Positions 36,773 to 63,133 of a DNA stretch of 64,000 bases are shown here, piece after piece (position 1 is the first letter of the stretch; every line of letters starts with the position of its first letter). The notes beneath the pieces were generated by a model. That model had not been told where the DNA came from. It did not search any database and saw nothing but the letters and a program-made list of their open reading frames with translations. Position numbers and translations under genes: made by a program. This stretch comes from Sedimentibacter sp. SX930 (GTDB taxonomy: Bacteria; Bacillota; Bacilli; Lactobacillales; Aerococcaceae). The stretch is from positions 558,001 through 622,000 of the forward strand of contig MUZD01000001.1 of assembly GCA_002155105.1 (NCBI GenBank), written 5' to 3'.

Positions 36773-36792
36773 AATGAATTTCAATTCTCAAT

Positions 36793-36876
36793 CACAATCC
36801 CTACGCTCGTGCTAACGAACAGGTTCGAAGGGTCAGAATCTAAGTTCAATCTCAGCCATGAAGGCACCCCTTTGTG
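36793..36876 (-). ncRNA. TPP riboswitch (THI element)
   Basis: Minus-strand reading gives CACAAAGGGGTGCC, then GGCTGAGA, then GACCCTTCGAACCTG, then GAGCGTAGGGATTGTG. These are the conserved P1, J3-2, P4 and closing parts of the TPP aptamer, in order and with P1 complementary ends. Ligand should switch thiT off. Confidence 0.94.
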
Positions 36877-36995
36877 AAACGGTTTATTTAGTTACAGCTA
36901 ACTTTACTACAGTTTATTTCGTTATGCAAGATTCACGCTGCACAAAGGCACGTCCGAAAAAACGGCGGCCTGAACAATCTTTTGTGCAAAACTAC

Positions 36996-53370: not shown

Positions 53371-54231
53371 TTATCTGTCGAACTTTTCCCGTCGCTTGGT
53401 GGACTTGATGAAAAGCTGTTTTAACGCAATACTGTCATCGTTCTTGATGGCTGCCTTGATCAGGTCGAGCTGATCTTCGAACGTCTGGATGCTCTTCAGC
53501 AAATACTCTTTGTTCTCAAGGAAAAGTTCGCTCCACAGGTCCTCGTTGATCTTGGCGATCCGGGTCAACTCACGGTAACTGTCACCGGTGAATTTCTCCG
53601 TTTCGCGGCCTTCGACATCACTGTTGACCAAAGCGACGGCGATCGCGTGCGGCAACTGGCTGGTGAAAGCGATCATTTCGTCATGGTAATCGGCAGAGAT
53701 GCGCGTGATCCTCCCGAAGCCCATCTCCATGATCAAATCTTCCATGAAAGCAAGATTCTCCTCTTTGTTGGAAGGGAGCGGCGTGAGGATGTAATTCGCA
53801 TTTTTGTAGACGGAACTGCTGGCGAAATCGATGCCTTTTTTCTCGCGTCCGGCCATCGGATGACCGAAGACAAAATCAATCGAGGCAGGCAAAACCGACA
53901 GGATATCCTCGATGAAGAACTTTTTGACACCCGTCGCATCCGTCAGAATCGAGCCCGGCTTGAAATGCTGCTTATGGGTGACGATGAAATCATGCACCAG
54001 ACGGGGATAGAGCGAAAAGATCACCAAATCGGATTGCGGAAGGATGTCCTTTCCATCCTGATAGCCCTCCTTGATGAGCTGTTGCGCTTTGGCTTTGTCC
54101 AGCGTCGCCTGGTCGATGTCGATGCCGTAAAGATTGCGGTACCCGGCATCGTGAAGGGCCATCGCGAAAGACCCGCCAATCACGCCCAGTCCGACGATCG
54201 TGATGTTCAGCTCCTTATTGAGGATTGTCAT
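53371..54231 (-). CDS. tyrA: Prephenate dehydrogenase
   Basis: The ATG at 54231 follows AGGAAGG; 286 residues. The NAD-binding motif is VGLGVIGGSFAMAL near residue 12. GHPMAGREKKGIDFA is the prephenate-binding motif, and QLPHAIAVAL and GDSYRELTRIAKIN are further family segments. It converts prephenate to 4-hydroxyphenylpyruvate for tyrosine. There is no C-terminal ACT domain, so direct Tyr feedback by that route is not expected. It overlaps aroK by 17 nt. Confidence 0.94.
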   Translation of the reverse strand: MTILNKELNITIVGLGVIGGSFAMALHDAGYRNLYGIDIDQATLDKAKAQQLIKEGYQDGKDILPQSDLVIFSLYPRLVHDFIVTHKQHFKPGSILTDATGVKKFFIEDILSVLPASIDFVFGHPMAGREKKGIDFASSSVYKNANYILTPLPSNKEENLAFMEDLIMEMGFGRITRISADYHDEMIAFTSQLPHAIAVALVNSDVEGRETEKFTGDSYRELTRIAKINEDLWSELFLENKEYLLKSIQTFEDQLDLIKAAIKNDDSIALKQLFIKSTKRREKFDR

Positions 54232-54754
54232 GTGCGTCGCCTTCCTTTCCTGCTCCAATGTGGTGCGCGATGATTTCAGCGGCAAGCTCTTCCAAGGGTT
54301 TATCGTTCTTGACGACGAAATCCGCAGCGTCCTGATAGAGGGTCTCGCGCTCGGACTTCAGCGCATAGATCCTTTCCAAACCATCCTTCAGCAGCGGACG
54401 ATGGGAAACTTCGATATCATGCGTGATATCTTCGACTGCCCGGTCGATGTAGTAGATTGTGCCGCTCTGTTTCAAGACCACGATATTTTCGTTGCGCTTG
54501 ACGACACCGCCGCCCGTGCTGACAATAGTATCTTCGAACTCGGCAATTTCCTTATAGGCATCCGACTCGATGTTGCGGAAATAGTCCTCTCCGATTTGGA
54601 AGAGGTCGGTGATGCTTTTGCCGGTCTTCTCCTCAATGAAGGCATCCGAATCGATGAAACGGTAACCGATTATATTGCTCAATAATTTCCCTAAAGTCGT
54701 CTTGCCTGCGCCAGGCAGTCCAATTAGGATGATATTTTTTCCCAAATCCTTCAC
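54215..54754 (-). CDS. aroK: Shikimate kinase
   Basis: This protein has 179 residues from the GTG at 54754; the TTG at 54745 is an alternative. The P-loop GLPGAGKTTLGKLLS is near residue 12, followed by the shikimate-binding FIDSDAFIEEKTG. VSTGGGVVKR is the conserved glycine-rich substrate loop, and HRPLL is in the lid region. It phosphorylates shikimate. It lies between aroE and tyrA in one operon with a 17-nt overlap at its end. Confidence 0.94.
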   Translation of the reverse strand: MKDLGKNIILIGLPGAGKTTLGKLLSNIIGYRFIDSDAFIEEKTGKSITDLFQIGEDYFRNIESDAYKEIAEFEDTIVSTGGGVVKRNENIVVLKQSGTIYYIDRAVEDITHDIEVSHRPLLKDGLERIYALKSERETLYQDAADFVVKNDKPLEELAAEIIAHHIGAGKEGDAHDNPQ

Positions 54755-54763
54755 CTATTCCCG

Positions 54764-55573
54764 TTATGATGTTATTTTATCATAGATTTCTTGGTTCAAT
54801 GTAAGCTCGAAAGGCCGTTCCAGCCAGATTTCCTGTGATTTGATGCCTTGATGCACCAACATTTCCAATCCGTTGCAGATCTTCAGACCGGCTGTTTTTG
54901 CCAAACGGAGAAATTCCGTTTCCTGCGGGTTGTAGATCAGATCCACTGCCGCACTGAAATGACGGATCACTTCGACCGGTACCGCGCTGATGCCGATGTT
55001 GTCAGGGAACATGCCAAGCGGCGTCGTGTTGATGATCAGATCGCCTGAGATGTCCGCTATGTCATCATAACTCATCAAGGAGATGCGCGGATCGTCCGGA
55101 ATATCAGTAAGAGCGCCTTTTTTTCGTGAAACGATGATAATGTTATTGATGCCATTATCCAGTAAATATAGAAGGACCGCCTTGGCGGATCCGCCGAAAC
55201 CCAAGACCATTGCCGTCTGGTTTTCGACTGCGATGCCGTGCGAAGCCAACATGGTGCCGAATCCGTAATAGTCGGTGTTGGCACCGTAGAGCTTGCCGTC
55301 TTTCACCTTGATTGTGTTGACTGCACCGATGCGCGTGGCTTCCGGTGTGATTTCGTCCAAGTAAGGCATCACCGTCTGTTTATAGGGAATCGTCACGTTG
55401 ACGCCGACAAACCGAAGCACGCGGATCCCTTCGATCGCCGCTGCCAGCTCGTCTGGGGGTATCTCAATATGTTTATAACCGGCATTCATTCCGATCAGAT
55501 CGAAAAAAGTCGAATGGATTCTTTCTGAATAACTGTGGCTCAGATGTTCGCCGAATAAGCCGAAAAATTGCAT
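54764..55573 (-). CDS. aroE: Shikimate dehydrogenase
   Basis: The ATG at 55573 lies 9 nt after AGGAG; 269 residues. GLFGEHLSHSYSERIH is the substrate-binding N-terminus, and NVTIPYKQTVMPYLDEIT holds the catalytic lysine. VLGFGGSAKAVLLYLLDNG is the NADP motif, and NTTPLGMFP follows. It reduces 3-dehydroshikimate to shikimate. It is first in the minus-strand operon; the promoter is very close to the ribosome site, leaving a leader of about 15 nt. Confidence 0.95.
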   Translation of the reverse strand: MQFFGLFGEHLSHSYSERIHSTFFDLIGMNAGYKHIEIPPDELAAAIEGIRVLRFVGVNVTIPYKQTVMPYLDEITPEATRIGAVNTIKVKDGKLYGANTDYYGFGTMLASHGIAVENQTAMVLGFGGSAKAVLLYLLDNGINNIIIVSRKKGALTDIPDDPRISLMSYDDIADISGDLIINTTPLGMFPDNIGISAVPVEVIRHFSAAVDLIYNPQETEFLRLAKTAGLKICNGLEMLVHQGIKSQEIWLERPFELTLNQEIYDKITS

Positions 55574-55595: not shown

Positions 55596-55624
55596 ATTGT
55601 AGATTATTGCCATGTAAATTTCAA
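55596..55624 (-). promoter_or_regulatory. Promoter of aroE-aroK-tyrA
   Basis: TTGAAA (55624-55619), 17 bp, TACAAT (55601-55596) on the minus strand. No leader peptide or terminator fits between it and aroE. Confidence 0.6.
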
Positions 55625-55660
55625 TACCCAGATTAAATTAAAAAAAAATTAAAAAAACTA

Positions 55661-55688
55661 TTGCAATGATTAGAGTGTTTGTTATAAT
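55661..55688 (+). promoter_or_regulatory. Promoter of the aroF operon leader
   Basis: TTGCAA (55661-55666), 16 bp, TATAAT (55683-55688). The start near 55695 leaves a leader of about 330 nt before aroF, with the aromatic peptide and terminator inside. Confidence 0.75.
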
Positions 55689-55756
55689 AATTGAAATCAG
55701 ACGTTTTCATTATGAGTTCAGCTGATTAAATGATACACAAGAGAAGAGGTCATCCG

Positions 55757-55906
55757 ATGGGTTCCACGCATGCTATCAATCTTTTACAAACAAACTTTTA
55801 CTTTACATACTTTACATTCTGGGGCTTCTATTTTAGCGCTGGATATTTTGTTTGGAAAAAATTGCATAGAGCGAATATGAGAAACATCAGGGGATGCGAG
55901 AAATAG
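55757..55906 (+). CDS. Aromatic leader peptide (Phe/Tyr/Trp attenuator)
   Basis: An open frame of 49 codons runs from an ATG preceded by AGAAGAGG. Residues 14-33 contain 7 Phe, 4 Tyr and 2 Trp out of 20 (NFYFTYFTFWGFYF, then SAGYFVW). No membrane-protein family was recognised, and the frame ends in charged residues before TAG. A hairpin (TTGC/GCAA outer, GACG/CGTC inner, 55908-55930) follows the stop, and an intrinsic terminator precedes aroF. Position, content and the downstream biosynthetic genes fit a leader peptide whose translation measures charged tRNA-Phe, tRNA-Tyr and tRNA-Trp. It resembles pheL/trpL of enterics in logic, not in sequence. Confidence 0.8.
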   Translation: MGSTHAINLLQTNFYFTYFTFWGFYFSAGYFVWKKLHRANMRNIRGCEK

Positions 55907-55957
55907 GTTGCAGGACGGATCGTCAGGCAACAGCATTTTTGGATAACGAAGCTTAAG

Positions 55958-55997
55958 GCGGTGCTCATATAACATGGGCACCGCTTTTTATTTTTTT
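55958..55997 (+). terminator. Attenuator terminator before aroF
   Basis: GCGGTGCTCAT (55958-55968) pairs with ATGGGCACCGC (55974-55984) with one G-U, followed by TTTTTATTTTTTT. ATGAG inside the leader (around 55876) could pair with CTCAT of the left arm as part of an antiterminator; this is weak and only suggestive. Confidence 0.82.
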
Positions 55998-56028
55998 AAA
56001 AGCAAAAAAACACTAGGAGGAACAAGAC

Positions 56029-57054
56029 ATGATCATCATTTTGAAGAAAACGGCTAAAGTAGAGGAAATCAACGAACTGACAAAACGCTTAACGGATAAA
56101 GGGGTCATCGTGAGCCCGGTAATCGGCGAAACAATGACTATTTTGGGCTTGGTAGGGGATACTTCGAAAGTATCGATGGACACTATTCAGCAACATCACA
56201 TCGTAGAGCGCGTATTGAAAGTTCAGGAGCCCTACAAAAAAGCCAACCGCAAATTCCATCCGGACGATACGGTTGTCGAAATCGACGGCCAACGCATCGG
56301 TAACGGCTACTTCGGCGTGATCGCAGGTCCTTGTTCCGTTGAAGGCGAAGAACAGATCATCAGCATCGCACAACGCGCAAAAGCAGCAGGGGCTAACTTC
56401 CTCCGCGGTGGAGCTTTCAAACCGCGCACATCCCCATACAGCTTCCAAGGTTTGGAATTGGAAGGCTTGCGTTTGTTGAAATTGGCGAAGGAAGCGACTG
56501 GCTTGCCGATCGTAACCGAATTGATGTCCACGAAATTCGTTGATGAGTTCGAGGCGGATGTGGATATGATCCAAATCGGCGCCCGCAACATGCAGAATTT
56601 CGATCTGTTGAAGGAAGTCGGCAAAACCAAGACACCGGTCCTGTTGAAGCGCGGTCTGTCCGCAACTTACGAAGAATGGTTGATGTCTGCTGAATACATC
56701 ATGTCCGAAGGGAACGAAAACGTCATCCTTTGCGAACGTGGAATCCGCACATTCGAAACGGAAACACGCAATACTTTGGATATCCAAGCGGTTCCGGTCA
56801 TCCAAAAATTATCCCACTTGCCGATCATCATCGATCCAAGTCATGCCGGCGGTTCTGCTTACCTGGTGCCATCCATGTCCAAATCCGCAGTCATGTCAGG
56901 CGCGAACGGTCTGATGGTCGAAATCCACCACGATCCTGAGAACGCATGGAGCGATGGCCAACAGTGCCTGAACCCGAATGAGTTCGACGAGTTGATGGCT
57001 GTCGTAAAACAATTGATTGCCATTGAAGGAAAGCATTTGGATGCGGTAAAATAA
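56029..57054 (+). CDS. aroF: 3-deoxy-7-phosphoheptulonate synthase (DAHP synthase, AroF type)
   Basis: This 341-residue enzyme is type I-beta with an N-terminal ferredoxin-like (ACT-like) domain (residues 1-70, MIIILKKTAKVEEINELTKR). The catalytic barrel begins near GPCSVEGEEQIISIAQ, with RGGAFKPRTSPYSFQG and DPSHAGGSAYLVPSM. It condenses PEP and erythrose 4-phosphate, the first committed step of the shikimate pathway. The N-terminal domain is where Tyr or Phe feedback acts in related enzymes. It is first of five genes behind the attenuator. Confidence 0.96.
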   Translation: MIIILKKTAKVEEINELTKRLTDKGVIVSPVIGETMTILGLVGDTSKVSMDTIQQHHIVERVLKVQEPYKKANRKFHPDDTVVEIDGQRIGNGYFGVIAGPCSVEGEEQIISIAQRAKAAGANFLRGGAFKPRTSPYSFQGLELEGLRLLKLAKEATGLPIVTELMSTKFVDEFEADVDMIQIGARNMQNFDLLKEVGKTKTPVLLKRGLSATYEEWLMSAEYIMSEGNENVILCERGIRTFETETRNTLDIQAVPVIQKLSHLPIIIDPSHAGGSAYLVPSMSKSAVMSGANGLMVEIHHDPENAWSDGQQCLNPNEFDELMAVVKQLIAIEGKHLDAVK

Positions 57055-57115: not shown

Positions 57116-58189
57116 ATGGCTGAATTACATGTAGGACTCGGCAAAGACAGCTACACGATCCTGATTGAAAATGGTTTGCGCCACCGTCTTCCGGAAGAAA
57201 TCAAAAAAATCTACAGCGGCAAGAAGATTGCCATTATCACGGACCATAACGTCAACGCGCACTACGGTTCCCAGTTGGATGTTGGCCTGCAGGCAGCGGG
57301 ATATGAGACGCTTGTCGTAGCCTTGCCGCCAGGCGAGCAGACGAAAGATTTCCAGATGCTGCCGCTGATCTATGAACAATTGTTGGATTTCCAACTGAAC
57401 CGCAGTGAATTGATCATTGCCTTGGGTGGAGGCGTCATCGGGGATCTCGCAGGCTTTGCGGCTGCCAGTTTCCTGCGCGGAGTGCCCTTCATCCAAATCC
57501 CGACTTCCTTGTTGGCTCAAGTGGACAGCAGCATCGGCGGCAAGGTCGGCGTGGATCTGGCAAGGGGGAAGAATCTGGTCGGGGCTTTCAATCAACCGAA
57601 GAAAGTGTTCATCGATCCGGAAATGCTGAACACGTTGTCGGACCACTTTTTCCGCGACGGTCTCGGGGAAGTCATCAAATACGGCTGCATCAAGGACGCC
57701 GAATTCTTCAGTTTCCTGCAGACGCTGCATACCCGCGAAGAGATGATGGCGCACATCGAAAAAATCCTCTACACGTGCTGCGACATCAAGCGCAGAGTCG
57801 TGGAAGAGGACGAAAAGGACACCGGCGAAAGAATGCTGCTGAACTTTGGCCACACGATCGCGCACGCTTTGGAGACCTATACCAATTATGCGAAATATTC
57901 GCACGGTGAAGCGGTGGCCATCGGGATGGTCGCCATCACGCGCCTTTCCGAGAAAAAAGGTTTCACGCAACCCGGGACGGCCGCGGCGATCGAAGCATTG
58001 GCGAAACAAGTCGGCTTGCCTACGGAACTGCATATGGAAGAAATTGATTTGGACAGCTTGTTGGCGATCATGACGTTGGACAAAAAGAATTTGGACGACC
58101 ATCTGAAAGTCATCCTGTTGAAGGAAATAGGCAACAGCTACGTTCAGGATGAAACCATCGCCTTCTTTGACGATCTGGAGAACATGTAG
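57116..58189 (+). CDS. aroB: 3-dehydroquinate synthase
   Basis: This 357-residue protein has GGGVIGDLAGFAAASFLRGV as NAD-binding part, PTSLLAQVDSSIGGKVGVD as active-site region, and LNFGHTIAHALE plus SHGEAVAIGM with the metal-binding histidines. It cyclises DAHP to 3-dehydroquinate. The ribosome site is AAGGAG. Second gene of the operon. The next pathway enzyme, dehydroquinate dehydratase (aroD/aroQ), is not in the window. Confidence 0.96.
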   Translation: MAELHVGLGKDSYTILIENGLRHRLPEEIKKIYSGKKIAIITDHNVNAHYGSQLDVGLQAAGYETLVVALPPGEQTKDFQMLPLIYEQLLDFQLNRSELIIALGGGVIGDLAGFAAASFLRGVPFIQIPTSLLAQVDSSIGGKVGVDLARGKNLVGAFNQPKKVFIDPEMLNTLSDHFFRDGLGEVIKYGCIKDAEFFSFLQTLHTREEMMAHIEKILYTCCDIKRRVVEEDEKDTGERMLLNFGHTIAHALETYTNYAKYSHGEAVAIGMVAITRLSEKKGFTQPGTAAAIEALAKQVGLPTELHMEEIDLDSLLAIMTLDKKNLDDHLKVILLKEIGNSYVQDETIAFFDDLENM

Positions 58190-58247
58190 AGCTATACTAT
58201 AGAAGAAACAGAAGAAATAAAATCGAAGAAACAACAGGAGGATTACA

Positions 58248-59543
58248 ATGGATTTGACGATACAGCCACATAAGCTATCGGGAACAGTGACTGTCCCGCC
58301 TTCAAAAAGTTTGGCGCACCGTGCGGTCATCTGTGCCGCGCTTTCTGACGGCACCTGCAAGATCGACAACATCGCGCTTTCGGATGACATCATCGCAACT
58401 ACAGAGGCCATGAAGGCATTCGGAGCAATCATCGAGCAGGACGGCAGCACATTGACGATCACCGGCGCGGGCCAATACGTTACAGAAGCAAACGCCGCTG
58501 AGAGCGCAACGACCGCTGAGTACCTGATCGATTGCAATGAATCCGGTTCGACCTTGCGTTTTGTCGTACCGATTTCAACGCTTTTCCAAGGCGCGAGCCG
58601 CTTCGTCGGCAGAGGGAATCTGGGCAAACGTCCATTGACCATCTTCTACGATATTTTCGAAGAGCAGGGCATTTCTTACAAACCGACTGAAGGCGAACTT
58701 GATTTGGTAGTGGACGGGAACCTGAAACCGGGTCATTTCTCATTTCCTGGAAATGTCAGCTCGCAATTCATCACGGGTCTTTTGTTCACCTTGCCGCTAT
58801 TGGGCGGAGACTCGGTCATCACGATCACGACGCCGCTTGAATCGATCGGCTATATCGATTTGACGTTGGACGTCATGAACGCTTTCGGTGTGACCATCGA
58901 AAACGAAGGCCATCAACTTTTCCGGATCAAGGGTGGACAATCCTACAAAGCGACAGATTACCGCGTCGAAGGGGATTATTCCCAAGCGGCCTTCTTCCTT
59001 TGCGCTGACGCATTGGGGAACGACCTGTTGGTGGACGATCTCTCGATGGATTCCCTCCAGGGAGACCGCGCTGTCGTTTCCATTCTGGAAGCGATGGGCG
59101 TCTCTTTTGAACAGCAGGGCAACGGTTTGATCGGCACGGCAGCAAATGGGCTGCACGGCACGTTGATCGACGCAGCGCAATGCCCGGACATCATTCCGGT
59201 CGTCGCGTTGACGGCTTGCCTGAGCGAAGGCAAAACGGAAATCATCAACGCCGGCAGACTGCGCATCAAAGAATGCGATCGTCTGCAGGCGACGGCCAGC
59301 GAATTGAACAAACTGGGCGCTGACATCGAAGAATTGCCGGAAGGCCTGCTGATCCATGGCGTCAAATCGCTAAAGGGCGGAGAGACGGTCTGGAGCTACA
59401 AGGACCACCGCATCGCCATGATGCTGGCAATCGCTGCGACGGTCTGCGAACAGCCGATCACAGTCACGGATGCCGAGTGCGTTTCAAAATCGTATCCGAA
59501 TTTTTGGGAAGACTATAAAGCAATAGGGGGCAAGATACAATGA
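58248..59543 (+). CDS. aroA: 3-phosphoshikimate 1-carboxyvinyltransferase (EPSP synthase)
   Basis: This 431-residue enzyme shows PPSKSLAHRAVICAALSDGT, NESGSTLRFVVP, GNVSSQFITGLLF and RIKECDRLQATASEL, with the C-terminal DHRIAMMLAI. It transfers the enolpyruvyl group of PEP to shikimate 3-phosphate. The early SKSLAHR (rather than SKSxTxR) is a natural variant of the binding loop. Its stop overlaps the aroC start by 4 nt. Confidence 0.95.
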   Translation: MDLTIQPHKLSGTVTVPPSKSLAHRAVICAALSDGTCKIDNIALSDDIIATTEAMKAFGAIIEQDGSTLTITGAGQYVTEANAAESATTAEYLIDCNESGSTLRFVVPISTLFQGASRFVGRGNLGKRPLTIFYDIFEEQGISYKPTEGELDLVVDGNLKPGHFSFPGNVSSQFITGLLFTLPLLGGDSVITITTPLESIGYIDLTLDVMNAFGVTIENEGHQLFRIKGGQSYKATDYRVEGDYSQAAFFLCADALGNDLLVDDLSMDSLQGDRAVVSILEAMGVSFEQQGNGLIGTAANGLHGTLIDAAQCPDIIPVVALTACLSEGKTEIINAGRLRIKECDRLQATASELNKLGADIEELPEGLLIHGVKSLKGGETVWSYKDHRIAMMLAIAATVCEQPITVTDAECVSKSYPNFWEDYKAIGGKIQ

Positions 59544-60637
59544 GCGGTGTATTTGGGAATAAATTAAAGGTATCCATCTTCGGCGAATCACATGGTTCCG
59601 CAATCGGCGTCACCATCGACGGTCTGCCGCCAGGCCATAAGATCGATATGGATAAAGTTCTGGAGGAAATGAAACGGAGAGCGCCAGGCCAAGGGGCTTT
59701 GACGACGCCAAGGAAAGAAAAAGATCAGCCTGAGATCTTGAGCGGTTACTTCAACGACATGACGACAGGCAGCCCGCTTGCGGCGATCATCCGCAACAGC
59801 GACACGCGATCCAAAGACTACGGTCAGATGAAGAAATTGATGCGTCCCGGCCAGGCCGATTATCCAGGCTATGTCCGCTACGACGGCTTCAACGATTACC
59901 GCGGCAGCGGCCATTTCTCCGGCCGGATAACGGCACCGCTAGTGTTTGCTGGTGCGATCGCGAAGCAATTGCTTGAAAAGCAAGGCATCACCATCGGCGG
60001 CCACGTCAAGAGCGTAGCCAAAATCCAGGATGACAGCTTCCTGAACACAGAAGTCACACCGGAAATGCTGAAAAGTTTTGCAAGTAAAGAACTGCCGTTG
60101 TTGAACGAGTCGCTTGAAGAGGAAATGCGCAATCTGATCCGCGAAGCGAAAGCCAGCGGCGATTCCGTTGGTGGAACCGCAGAAATCTGTGTATTGGGCA
60201 TCCCGGCAGGAGTCGGCAATCCTTTCTTTGATTCCGTTGAGTCCGTTCTGGCGCACATTCTCTTCTCCGTGCCTGCCATCAAAGGCTTGGAATTCGGGAG
60301 CGGCTTCGGCATCGCAGAAATGCTTGGATCGGAAGCGAATGATTCCTATTATTATGACGGCGACCAGATCAAGACCCGCACGAACCACAACGGCGGTATT
60401 TTGGGCGGCATCACGGACGGCATGCCAATCATCTACAAAGTGGCGATCAAGCCGCCAGCTTCCATCACAAAGCTGCAGCAAACCATCAACATCGAAGACA
60501 AGACGGATGCGGAATTATCGGTTGAAGGCAGACACGATCCGATCATCGTACCGCGCGCCATTCCTGTATTGGAAGCCGTGACGGCGATCGCGATCCTGGA
60601 TCTGCTGTTGGATTCGAAATTCTACAAATACGACTGA
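59540..60637 (+). CDS. aroC: Chorismate synthase
   Basis: This 365-residue protein has GESHGSAIGVTIDGLPPGH at the N-terminus. RRAPGQGALTTPRKEKDQ, GYVRYDGFNDYRGSGHFSGR and the C-terminal HNGGILGGITDGMPI are the three signatures. It uses reduced FMN to make chorismate from EPSP. Coupled to aroA by ATGA. Confidence 0.96.
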   Translation: MSGVFGNKLKVSIFGESHGSAIGVTIDGLPPGHKIDMDKVLEEMKRRAPGQGALTTPRKEKDQPEILSGYFNDMTTGSPLAAIIRNSDTRSKDYGQMKKLMRPGQADYPGYVRYDGFNDYRGSGHFSGRITAPLVFAGAIAKQLLEKQGITIGGHVKSVAKIQDDSFLNTEVTPEMLKSFASKELPLLNESLEEEMRNLIREAKASGDSVGGTAEICVLGIPAGVGNPFFDSVESVLAHILFSVPAIKGLEFGSGFGIAEMLGSEANDSYYYDGDQIKTRTNHNGGILGGITDGMPIIYKVAIKPPASITKLQQTINIEDKTDAELSVEGRHDPIIVPRAIPVLEAVTAIAILDLLLDSKFYKYD

Positions 60638-60657
60638 GAACGGAGTGGAAGGCGAGT

Positions 60658-61803
60658 ATGACGGAGTTAGAAGACTATCGCAAAGAGTTGGACGCCCTTG
60701 ATCAGGAGCTTGTGGCTCTGTTCGAGAAACGGATGCACATTTCCCAAGCCATCGGCAATTACAAGGTGGCTCATGATTTGCCCATCTTTGATGAGGGCCG
60801 TGAGCAGCGTGTAGTGGAGCAGAATCTTACCCATCTGAAGAGTGATGACTTTGCGGTGCAGACCCATCATTTCCTGGATACGATCATGGATCTTTCGAAG
60901 GAAGTCCAAAAAGATGTCCGGGCAGCCTCGAACGATTACGAGCAGATTTTTGCGATCCACAATCCAAAAGAGCACGCGCAGATCGGTTACTTCGGGGAAA
61001 CGGGTTCGTTCTGTGAAGAAGCCATGTTGGCTTATTTCAAGGAAGCACCCCGCGATCCGAAAAACTATCATACCTTTGAATCGTTGTTCCTTGGCATCCA
61101 GAACGGGGAAATCGATTACGGCGTTCTGCCTGTGGAAAACTCCTCTACCGGTGCGATTTCTCAAGTGCTTGATCTGTTGTACAAATACGGCCTTTCCATC
61201 GTGGGCGAGCAATACATCAAAATCGAGCAGCATCTGATCGGCCTGGAAGGGACCGGTCTGGATCAGATTGAGGAAGTCTATTCGCACCCGCAAGGTTTCC
61301 AGCAATCCACCGATTATTTCAAGGATCATGAGCAGTGGCGTCAGATTCCGTTCCACAGCACCTCCGACAGCGCGAAAATGGTGAAGGATTCCGGTGATGC
61401 GCACAAAGGCGCCATCGCCAGCAGAAGGGCCGCCCAGATCCATGGCCTCTCCATATTGGCGGAGAGCATCCAGAATCAGAGCGAAAATACGACCCGCTTC
61501 ATCATCGTCGGCAAGGATCTCGAGTCGAACCCGCGCTGCAACAAAGTCAGTGTGGTGTTCTCTTTGGACAACCAAGCCGGTACCCTGTTCAAGCTGCTGC
61601 GTCATTTCGCGAGATACCACATCAACCTGATCAAAATCGAATCCCGCCCTGTCGAAGGGGAGAAATGGGAATACCTGTTGTACCTGGATTTCGAAGGCAA
61701 CATCGCCGACGAAAACGTCCATGAAGCCCTGCGCTTCATCCACCGGAGCAGCGTCTACTTCAGACTGCTGGGCTGCTATAAGGCCGCTACCGAAAACAAA
61801 TAA
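60658..61803 (+). CDS. pheA: Bifunctional chorismate mutase / prephenate dehydratase
   Basis: This 381-residue P-protein has an AroQ-type chorismate mutase at about 1-90 (RKELDALDQELVALFEKRMHISQAIGNYK). The prephenate dehydratase domain covers about 105-285, with VLPVENSSTGAISQV and the catalytic ENTTRFI. An ACT domain follows (SLDNQAGTLFKLLRHFA, KIESRPVEGEKWEYLLYLD) with the ESRP element that binds Phe. Fused PheA is usual in enterics but less common in Firmicutes, where the mutase is often separate. It ends the operon, so the attenuator also governs Phe synthesis. Confidence 0.94.
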   Translation: MTELEDYRKELDALDQELVALFEKRMHISQAIGNYKVAHDLPIFDEGREQRVVEQNLTHLKSDDFAVQTHHFLDTIMDLSKEVQKDVRAASNDYEQIFAIHNPKEHAQIGYFGETGSFCEEAMLAYFKEAPRDPKNYHTFESLFLGIQNGEIDYGVLPVENSSTGAISQVLDLLYKYGLSIVGEQYIKIEQHLIGLEGTGLDQIEEVYSHPQGFQQSTDYFKDHEQWRQIPFHSTSDSAKMVKDSGDAHKGAIASRRAAQIHGLSILAESIQNQSENTTRFIIVGKDLESNPRCNKVSVVFSLDNQAGTLFKLLRHFARYHINLIKIESRPVEGEKWEYLLYLDFEGNIADENVHEALRFIHRSSVYFRLLGCYKAATENK

Positions 61804-61837
61804 GCAAAGCTTTCCGCCCTTGCGCGGAAAGCCTGAA

Positions 61838-61885
61838 AAGCCAGCAATAACCGCTTCGGGCGGTCGTTGCTGGCTTTTTGTTTTT
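61838..61885 (+). terminator. Terminator of the aroF-pheA operon
   Basis: AAGCCAGCAA...ACCG pairs with CGGT...TTGCTGGCTT, followed by TTTGTTTTT. A smaller GCTTTCCGC/GCGGAAAGC hairpin (61809-61832) precedes it. Confidence 0.85.
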
Positions 61886-61954
61886 CGATTCTTGCAGTCC
61901 AGGGCAAAAATGGGTACTATTAAGAAGAGAACGCGTTACGGAAGGGTGATGTTT

Positions 61955-62479
61955 GTGAAAGCAGCAGAGAGACGAAATGAAATCATCAAATTATTGGAGG
62001 CCACGGATCAACCGGTGAACGCCACCCAACTGGCTGAACTGTTATCGGTCAGCCGTCAGGTCATCGTGGGCGATATCGCGTTGATTCGCGCCAAGGGGAT
62101 CGAGATTTTGGCAACGCCGCGGGGCTATCTATCAGCGAATGCATTCAAAGGCGAAGGCAGCCTGTTCACGGGCAAAATTGCCAGTCAGCACTCGCAAGCC
62201 GAGACCGTTACGGAACTGAACATCATCGTGGACAACGGCGGCGAGGTCGTGGATGTCCAGGTCGAGCACCCCGTCTACGGTACTTTGACCGGGGAACTGC
62301 ATATCCGCTCGCGCCATGATGTCATCGATTTTATGAAAAAAATCGCATCAAACGAAGCAGCGATGCTGTCTTCGCTGACGGGCGGCGTGCATCTGCATAC
62401 ACTTGCCTGCAAGGATGAAGAAACATTCCTGCGCATCAAAAAAGAACTGCAGGAAGCGGGCATCCTCTATTCCGATTGA
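61955..62479 (+). CDS. niaR: Niacin-responsive repressor NiaR (HTH plus 3H domain)
   Basis: The GTG at 61955 lies 9 nt after GGAAGG; ATG at 61949 is too near. The protein has 174 residues. An HTH_11 region covers 1-60 (RNEIIKLLEATDQPVNATQLAELLSVSRQVIVGDIALIR). The 3H domain follows, with its histidines in VEHPVYG, IRSRHDVIDFM and GGVHLHTL. NiaR (YrxA) represses NAD-precursor genes when niacin binds. It sits directly upstream of niaX with a palindromic site between them. Confidence 0.93.
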   Translation: MKAAERRNEIIKLLEATDQPVNATQLAELLSVSRQVIVGDIALIRAKGIEILATPRGYLSANAFKGEGSLFTGKIASQHSQAETVTELNIIVDNGGEVVDVQVEHPVYGTLTGELHIRSRHDVIDFMKKIASNEAAMLSSLTGGVHLHTLACKDEETFLRIKKELQEAGILYSD

Positions 62480-62497
62480 AAACGCATGAAAATATGC

Positions 62498-62525
62498 TTG
62501 ACAACTCCTGAAAAGATTATATAAT
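62498..62525 (+). promoter_or_regulatory. niaX promoter
   Basis: TTGACA (62498-62503), 16 bp, TATAAT (62520-62525). Confidence 0.78.
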
Positions 62526-62528
62526 ATA

Positions 62529-62552
62529 TTACAACTGTCAAGACAGTTGTAA
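62529..62552 (+). promoter_or_regulatory. Putative NiaR operator
   Basis: A 24-bp palindrome with perfect 11-nt arms (TTACAACTGTC and its complement) around AA, directly after the -10 and over the expected start site. Binding would block transcription initiation of niaX. Confidence 0.75.
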
Positions 62553-62575
62553 ACATCTTTGGAGGGATTGGCGAA

Positions 62576-63133
62576 ATGAATACACGTACACAAACGAAAC
62601 ATATTACGATAGCTGCTCTACTGATTGCGATAGGGATCCTGATACCAATGATATCCCCTTTGAAAATAATTCTGGAACCGGCTTCCTTTACTTTGGCTAG
62701 CCATGTGGCAACGATGATCGCCATGTTCCTTTCACCCGGCATCGCTGTTGCGGTTGCCTTTGGAACGGCAGTCGGCTTTATGCTTGGCGGCTTTCCCTTG
62801 GTCGTAGTCCTGCGTGCGGCAACGCACATGATTTTTTCTTATGTCGGTGCGAAATACATCCAAAAGCACCCGGAAATGGCGCACGATATCAAAAAATCGT
62901 TGTTATTCAGCCTGGTCCTTGGCGTGTTGCATGCTAGCTCCGAAGTCATCGTCGTGAGCCTGTTCTACTTTGCAGGCAACCTTACGACAGCCTATTACGA
63001 TAAAGGCCTGATTTCTTCCGTCATGCTGCTGGTCGGCGTCGGAACCGTCATCCACAGCATGGTCGATTACTGGTTGGCCCAAATCGTCTGGAAAACGGTC
63101 GGTAAAAAAGCCCTGCCTCTACGCTCTGTGTAG
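62576..63133 (+). CDS. niaX: Niacin ECF transporter S component NiaX
   Basis: This 185-residue protein has six membrane segments. The ITIAALLIAIGILIPMISP start, ASFTLASHVATMIAMFLSP and HMVDYWLAQIVW-like C-terminus fit NiaX. The call is reinforced by the adjacent niaR and its operator. It captures nicotinic acid or nicotinamide for the shared ECF module. GGAGGG precedes the ATG. Confidence 0.92.
   Translation: MNTRTQTKHITIAALLIAIGILIPMISPLKIILEPASFTLASHVATMIAMFLSPGIAVAVAFGTAVGFMLGGFPLVVVLRAATHMIFSYVGAKYIQKHPEMAHDIKKSLLFSLVLGVLHASSEVIVVSLFYFAGNLTTAYYDKGLISSVMLLVGVGTVIHSMVDYWLAQIVWKTVGKKALPLRSV

Follow-up and report, generated by a model that had tools for sequence, protein, structure and literature searches.

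In enteric bacteria, pheL, trpL and hisL encode leader peptides rich in the codons of the end product, on RNAs that form 1:2, 2:3 and 3:4 helices, and the trp leader has a pause hairpin; in Firmicutes, amino acid genes are usually expected to be controlled by T-boxes, and aromatic regulation in low-GC Gram-positives is said to have been covered by a comparative study of 2003. The leader that we describe here, ahead of an aroF operon, resembles the enteric ones in its end-product codons and in its predicted 1:2, 2:3 and 3:4 helices, but it would read three amino acids together to control the common pathway, and it has a long aromatic stretch and a further hairpin, P1, inside the 1:2 loop. The closest known system is a published aroF leader candidate in Acholeplasma, the uORFC-13-1 motif, found upstream of aroF only and published as a candidate attenuator, with 24 representatives confined to Acholeplasma and environmental sequences in the passages that describe it (PMC8632094). 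Like the present leader, it has a possible promoter, a ribosome site, a start codon and an intrinsic terminator, together with a U-run coding for at least one Phe and one further base-paired substructure; compared by description only, it has no antiterminator and no Tyr or Trp codons in those passages (PMC8632094). In Corynebacterium glutamicum, attenuation of aroF by a leader peptide was proposed, and a putative peptide (Phe-Tyr-Phe) likewise precedes the DAHP synthase gene, but this is an actinobacterium, and the text that sets out the proposal names three aromatic residues and describes no structural model (PMC4046766). Within Firmicutes, His genes have known or predicted leader-peptide attenuators (PMC2965389, PMC9413887), with terminator and antiterminator described in the Bacillus cereus group, Peptostreptococcaceae and Erysipelotrichales (PMC9413887), and the branched-chain operons of S. 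aureus and Listeria are likewise among the known or predicted targets of ribosome-mediated attenuation (PMC6123439). These systems share leader-peptide attenuation in Firmicutes with the aroF leader but concern other amino acids and operons, and nothing resembling P1 is described in the sections that bear on them (PMC9413887, PMC6123439). The statement of an earlier note on this DNA, that no described example of this kind was known in the group, must therefore be narrowed: an aroF leader candidate with Phe codons is in print for Acholeplasma (PMC8632094), as are His and branched-chain leader peptides in Firmicutes (PMC9413887, PMC6123439). A literature search, with subscription journals mostly outside it, found no description of the leader of Clostridia and Trichococcus. 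Attenuation by a leader peptide is thus of a known kind; the family, P1 and the breadth of the distribution appear new.

The window, that is the whole stretch of 64,000 nucleotides that was analysed, carries the leader between a promoter and aroF as follows (all on the + strand):

55661..55688, +, sigma-A type promoter read from the sequence: -35 TTGCAA (55661-55666), 16-nt spacer, extended -10 TATAAT (55683-55688) in a TGnTATAAT context
55742..55749, +, ribosome binding site of the leader ORF, AGAAGAGG, read from the sequence
55757..55906, +, leader peptide ORF of 49 codons, ATG at 55757, stop TAG at 55904-55906, read from the sequence
55773..55794, +, strand 1, in the 5' half of the ORF, which folds onto the 3' half (about 55846-55869) beside the antiterminator strand (minimum-energy fold)
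55818..55843, +, P1, hairpin in the reading frame, UCUGG-G-GCU / AGC-G-CUGGA, with a Trp codon (55820-55822) inside (folding and family comparison)
55875..55888, +, strand 2, the antiterminator, AUAUGAG (55875-55881) and CAUC (55885-55888) (nascent fold)
55907..55931 (about), +, hairpin after the stop codon, at genus level (folds)
55955..55997, +, intrinsic terminator (3:4), hairpin 55955-55987 and T-run to 55997, whose 5' arm holds strand 3, GGUGCUCAUAU (55960-55970) (sequence and folding)
56029..57054, +, aroF, DAHP synthase with a ferredoxin-like domain, first gene of the operon, ATG at 56029 after GGAGG (Pfam PF00793, PF18152)
57116..61803, +, aroB, aroA, aroC and pheA, the rest of the operon under the leader (Pfam)

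The promoter, the ribosome site, the 49-codon frame with 13 aromatic codons in 20 and the strong terminator ahead of aroF all lie where the earlier note had placed them, and its aroF-aroB-aroA-aroC-pheA operon is borne out by Pfam matches for all five genes (DAHP synthase, AroB, AroA, AroC, CM-prephenate dehydratase). A similar TTG..../TATAAT pair stands at the promoter place of the other Trichococcus leaders compared, and the 291 nt from 55705 fold better than 200 of 200 shuffles (z -3.68). Another of its claims, a hairpin just after the stop codon, holds in the window and in T. palustris, where it is kept with other letters, but has no general counterpart by eye in the wider family, and we have therefore left it out of the core parts. 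Around the leader, aroE, aroK and tyrA are divergent (53371-55573, - strand; Pfam) and not under its control, and 61721-63130 (+ strand) holds a gene for an HTH/3H-domain regulator and, after it, an ORF without a Pfam match, a pair that we take to be a niacin regulator and a transporter. Further away, Rfam places a TPP riboswitch aptamer at 36781-36881 (- strand, 62.6 bits).

From this arrangement, its conservation and its modelled folding, we consider it very probable that the leader is a ribosome-mediated transcription attenuator of the common aromatic pathway. Comparison and folding support the ORF, the three alternating helices and P1; from these we infer translation, stalling, coupling, a response to starvation and a role for P1.

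The window's genome is, judging from its aroF protein (95-99% identical to those of eight named Trichococcus strains), a Trichococcus, and the leader is found in 11 of 13 genomes of the genus, its own included; the two without it are 51% and 63% complete and have no aroF match either. In scans of named genomes, related peptides were found upstream of aroF in Clostridium, Marinisporobacter, Pelosinus and Oscillospiraceae and in one other Lactobacillales genome (L141), and no leader match was found in the 700 nt searched in Alkalibacterium, Marinilactibacillus and Desemzia, which are close Lactobacillales by their aroF protein. Clostridium tyrobutyricum is among the carriers of such a leader (L045). 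A profile built from 19 related leader peptides (match threshold E 0.01) matched 12 of 398 Bacilli genomes (5 of the 12 with aroF in the same locus) and 14 of 398 genomes of a phylum sample (9 with aroF in the locus), the own genome being counted in both samples. It matched 85 of 147 genomes in the order of genome G1028; since G1028 and Clostridium sp. ZS2-4 have an identical leader region, we treat this order as Clostridiales. At 80 leader loci of that order (six of its 87 profile matches were not among the loci examined), the downstream gene on the same strand was aroF in 71, aroB in 7, aroK in 1 and none in 1, the single locus without an aro gene being a weak profile match. By these matches, the aromatic leader is frequent in Clostridiales and not peculiar to the window's genome; plasmid records searched with the leader DNA gave no match. 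On an aroF tree of 131 rows, the leader label needs 17 changes, compared to 41.4 in shuffles (0 of 500 as low), its 'none' label including some leaders that the search pattern missed as well as simpler aromatic leaders; Trichococcus (one row after thinning) stands there among mostly leaderless Lactobacillales, with the leader-bearing L141 basal in the clade.

Several loci lie at the margins of this family. In seven (L211, L217, L222, L224, L234, L235, L240), the leader is followed by aroB, and in six of these also by aroA, with no aroF match within the stretch examined. In 15 more loci of other Carnobacteriaceae/Lactobacillales (L126-L129, L131-L140, L160; 16 of 53 scanned with L141 included), aroF is preceded by short ORFs that are dense in Phe and Tyr (for example FYNFFNFYFYFYGF and NSWFYFSFYFF) and lack the P1 peptide motif. 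These appear to be aromatic leaders of other designs, and some that were examined further show terminators by eye. A Fusobacteria MAG and a Bacillota MAG (L027, L032) also show, by eye, an aromatic leader upstream of aroF with a terminator and a P1-like hairpin (GCUCAA/UUGGGC and GCCCAA/UUGGGU, respectively). For the comparisons that follow, the nine of the 80 loci without aroF downstream were dropped before the counts, those without a recognised core were dropped as well (L072 and L177, 2 of 39; L231, L253 and L266, 3 of 71), and leaders more than 80% alike were thinned from 96 to 60.

The window's leader frame would encode MGSTHAINLLQTNFYFTYFTFWGFYFSAGYFVWKKLHRANMRNIRGCEK, with 7 Phe, 4 Tyr and 2 Trp codons among the 20 of its aromatic stretch (55796-55855), and it is the only one of the 1788 stop-to-stop frames of at least 20 codons in the whole window to reach 10 aromatics per 20 codons. 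The earlier note expected this enrichment to persist in relatives, and it does: counted from the Trp-position codon, positions -8 to -2, left free by the search pattern, are aromatic in 35-85% of the 60 thinned leaders, with Phe and Tyr exchanging, and positions +9 and +10 in 65% and 53%; the shares at 0, +2, +3 and +8 are set aside since the core-locating pattern partly fixes them. Its proposal that one peptide covers all three amino acids also extends to the family, as 91 of the 99 different peptides contain Phe, Tyr and Trp together. The median number of aromatic residues in a peptide is 15; peptides were read back as far as the preceding in-frame stop or for 70 residues at most, so that a few residues may precede the start. 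Trp contributes little, with two codons in the window's leader and one in those of T. palustris and T. ilyis. A Lys codon at +13 after the Trp position, outside P1, is kept in 40 of the 60 thinned leaders. A short ORF with a ribosome site and end-product codons, of the trpL/pheL kind, is thus present, and its translation is predicted: a Shine-Dalgarno-like stretch precedes the chosen start in 99 of 102 leader ORFs, starts having been chosen so as to favour one, and codon positions (392 of 938 substitutions at third positions) and gap lengths (242 of 674 divisible by three in the ORF versus 229 of 927 in the spacer) are weak signs of translation.

The ability to form a terminator is likewise retained in relatives, as the earlier note had anticipated: one follows 102 of 105 leaders (a raw count, with no chance baseline), the three leaders without one by the criteria used being L063, L067 and L069. 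Its 5' arm reads CUCAUU in most Clostridia listed, CUCAUAU in Trichococcus and CUCAC in L054 and L182, and terminators of other kinds, without the CUCAU motif, are found in L166 and L181. An antiterminator and a protecting strand, both absent from the earlier note, were found in the family and covary. When the best partner of the 5' arm was searched between core and terminator in each of the 60 thinned leaders, it started +42 to +70 nt from the Trp-position codon in 53, versus 17.4 expected, and the partners AAUGAG, AUAUGAG, GUGAG and AGUGAG match the respective arms, that is, changes on one side are met by changes on the other. A strand near the ORF start also pairs with the antiterminator site (CUUAUUAGA with UCUAAUGAG in C. 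homopropionicum, L062), and in L175 this pairing is retained with quite different letters. Native strands pair better than strands swapped between leaders, for 2:3 (z -6.1) and for 1:2 (z -12.5; 0 of 2000 permutations each), compared to controls of z -0.8 and -0.5 and one that deviates, an upstream stretch against strand 2 (z -2.5, 13 of 2000). Taken singly, no more than 10 of 200 shuffles do as well as the native sequence in 12 of 34 leaders for 2:3 and in 16 of 36 for 1:2, and the window's leader is in neither set: its 2:3 duplex is no better than shuffles (93 of 200 as good) and its 1:2 duplex is equalled by 57 of 200 (4 of 200 in T. palustris). Three alternating helices, 1:2, 2:3 and 3:4, are thus supported by comparison of sequences: the intrinsic terminator at 55955-55997 lies between ORF and first gene, an antiterminator exclusive with it is indicated by the family swap test and by folding of the window, and a protector 1:2 that would free strand 3 is found for the family.

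Folding of the nascent RNA up to the terminator loop, with an assumed ribosome footprint and omitting the RNA upstream of a stalled ribosome, suggests how these helices could follow the state of the ribosome. Over the 60 thinned leaders, the mean share of antiterminator pairs is 0.67 with the ribosome stalled at the Trp-position codon (0.67 to 0.69 over footprints of 13, 16 and 19 nt), 0.33 with no ribosome and 0.09 with the ribosome at the stop codon; these levels lean high, the site having been defined by the strongest duplex found at +42 to +80, and the contrast between states is independent of that choice. The stalled value exceeds the free one by more than 0.2 in 34 of 60 leaders (the reverse in 8) and the stop-codon one in 43 (the reverse in 1). 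With strand 1 shuffled, the ribosome-free share goes up from 0.33 to 0.55. At the stop codon, the share is 0.02 in 36 leaders, in which the stop precedes the end of strand 2 or is no more than 15 nt away from this strand and the ribosome would cover it, and 0.19 in the other 24, in which the stop is more distant and strand 1 would do the work. In the window, strand 2 pairs with 55960-55970 when the ribosome is stalled, the antiterminator share being 0.72-0.96 at five of the six aromatic stall positions and 0.28 at the sixth, with 0.07-0.16 without a ribosome and 0.14 at the stop; in T. palustris it is 0.33 and 0.94 stalled, 0.02 without a ribosome and 0.25 at the stop. Once the full terminator is present, equilibrium favours it in all states of the window (0.95-0.96), which means that the decision must be kinetic and fall during RNA synthesis, as in known attenuators.

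The switch that we propose would work as follows. When charged Phe-, Tyr- and Trp-tRNA are all plentiful, the ribosome would reach the stop codon, where it would either cover strand 2 or have left strand 1 free to re-pair with it; with strand 2 occupied, strand 3 would be free and the terminator would form ahead of aroF. When any one of the three charged tRNAs is scarce, the ribosome would stall on the aromatic codons and strand 1 would be kept apart, strand 2 (AUAUGAG) could catch strand 3 (CUCAUAU) as it is made, and the polymerase would read into aroF-aroB-aroA-aroC-pheA. P1 would most likely be a pause or timing hairpin, by analogy with the trp leader, which could keep ribosome and polymerase in step.

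P1 itself lies across the run of aromatic codons, an unusual place, and is written, for example as AGCUGGGGCU-loop-AGCGCUGGCU, in the codons of the conserved non-aromatic residues of the peptide (Gly, Ser, Ala, Gly), whose conservation would be superfluous for counting codons. Its pairs are kept where Trp-Gly has become Gln-Tyr (L182), where Trp has become Arg (L141, L166) and where Trp has become Tyr (L060, L071, as CCUAUGCC with GGCAUGGG), and 10 of 34 aligned leaders have an extra codon in the loop (34 of 36 leaders were aligned, L009 and L069 being left out). Measured against synonymous recodings that used the codon usage of the same aroF gene, P1 has a mean z of -2.56 over 81 distinct cores (79 below zero, 55 at p 0.05), compared to a mean of 0.01 over 60 for the control, aroF codons 21-32; the window's own P1 has z -2.00 (p 0.032). 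The outer helix is paired in 89.2% of cells, a value that 0 of 500 shuffles reach and to which slid controls come no closer than 52.5%, and its covariation score is also above all shuffles and slides. Two-sided changes in this helix are not specific (7 observed versus 11 and 9 on column slides of -1 and +1), and 249 of 500 shuffles reach the observed number of P1 pairs changed on both sides. An RNA hairpin in frame constrains the peptide, so that it drifts less than the earlier note had expected.

These data bear on what else the conserved peptide could be. It might be a nascent-peptide sensor of the TnaC kind, itself arresting the ribosome when it senses a free aromatic amino acid, since Gly, Ser/Ala, Gly and Lys recur at fixed places over great distances; yet all of these but Lys map to the P1 stem, L182, L141 and L166 change residues while keeping its pairs, the loop accepts an added codon in 10 of 34 leaders and the stretch is more stable than its synonymous recodings. 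P1 therefore explains most of the non-aromatic conservation, which weakens this reading; residue conservation independent of RNA structure comes down to the Lys (40 of 60), for which P1 does not account, and we regard a peptide sensor as very unlikely. The frame also resembles a small membrane-like protein co-transcribed with aroF, having a hydrophobic run followed by basic residues and being recognisable across classes, but a terminator stands between it and aroF, a covarying antiterminator strand lies inside it or at its end, its lengths run from 26 residues upward with unrelated ends, and no curated family includes it, making an ordinary protein extremely improbable. Matches of the peptide to Pfam DUF2628 (the best Pfam match) and NCBIfam DLW-39 were below cut-offs, and the OsmE model was touched by 1 of 19 family peptides (E 0.063).

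Alternatively, P1 could bind a protein or an aromatic amino acid, the main switch being riboswitch-like and the ORF secondary. Its letters are conserved beyond the pairs (12 of 60 columns at least 90% conserved in 34 leaders, some of them favoured by the search pattern), but its sequence differs between the Clostridium and Oscillospiraceae types, and the antiterminator, the start-of-frame strand and the aromatic codons suffice for a classical attenuator; we give this option very little credence. In a bolder and still improbable extension of the attenuator, P1 would be a second sensor or an element setting ribosome speed, written in the very codons that are counted; the leader would combine charged Phe-, Tyr- and Trp-tRNA with a signal received directly (a protein or free aromatic amino acid on P1) across Clostridia, Negativicutes, some Bacilli and perhaps Fusobacteria. 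The reading that we retain is the ribosome-mediated attenuator, with P1 as a candidate pause hairpin.

Rfam and NCBIfam searches gave no family for this leader, and at gathering score Rfam has two matches in the whole window, neither in the leader. Searched up to E 5 over 55600-56040, Rfam returns six weak matches (microRNA, sRNAs, sok, intron), none of them a leader family; the Phe_leader and Trp_leader covariance models do not match, nor does RF00230, and the earlier note too saw no T-box core sequence. T-boxes occur elsewhere in the genome (27 RF00230 matches, 15 over the cut-off), and one of them (98.5 bits) precedes a second DAHP synthase gene (L287:1772-3100, contig C32). The codon at what we take to be the usual specifier place of this T-box is, by eye, UUC (Phe).

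If the attenuator reading is true, a control frequent in the order taken as Clostridiales (85 of 147 genomes sampled) would act on the entry enzyme of the shikimate pathway with no family to represent it among the Rfam and NCBIfam entries searched. Since the second DAHP synthase gene stands behind a T-box, a single cell would offer both sensing systems for comparison at the same step. P1, for its part, would allow one to test clearly how the same letters can serve both an RNA structure and a peptide that counts codons.
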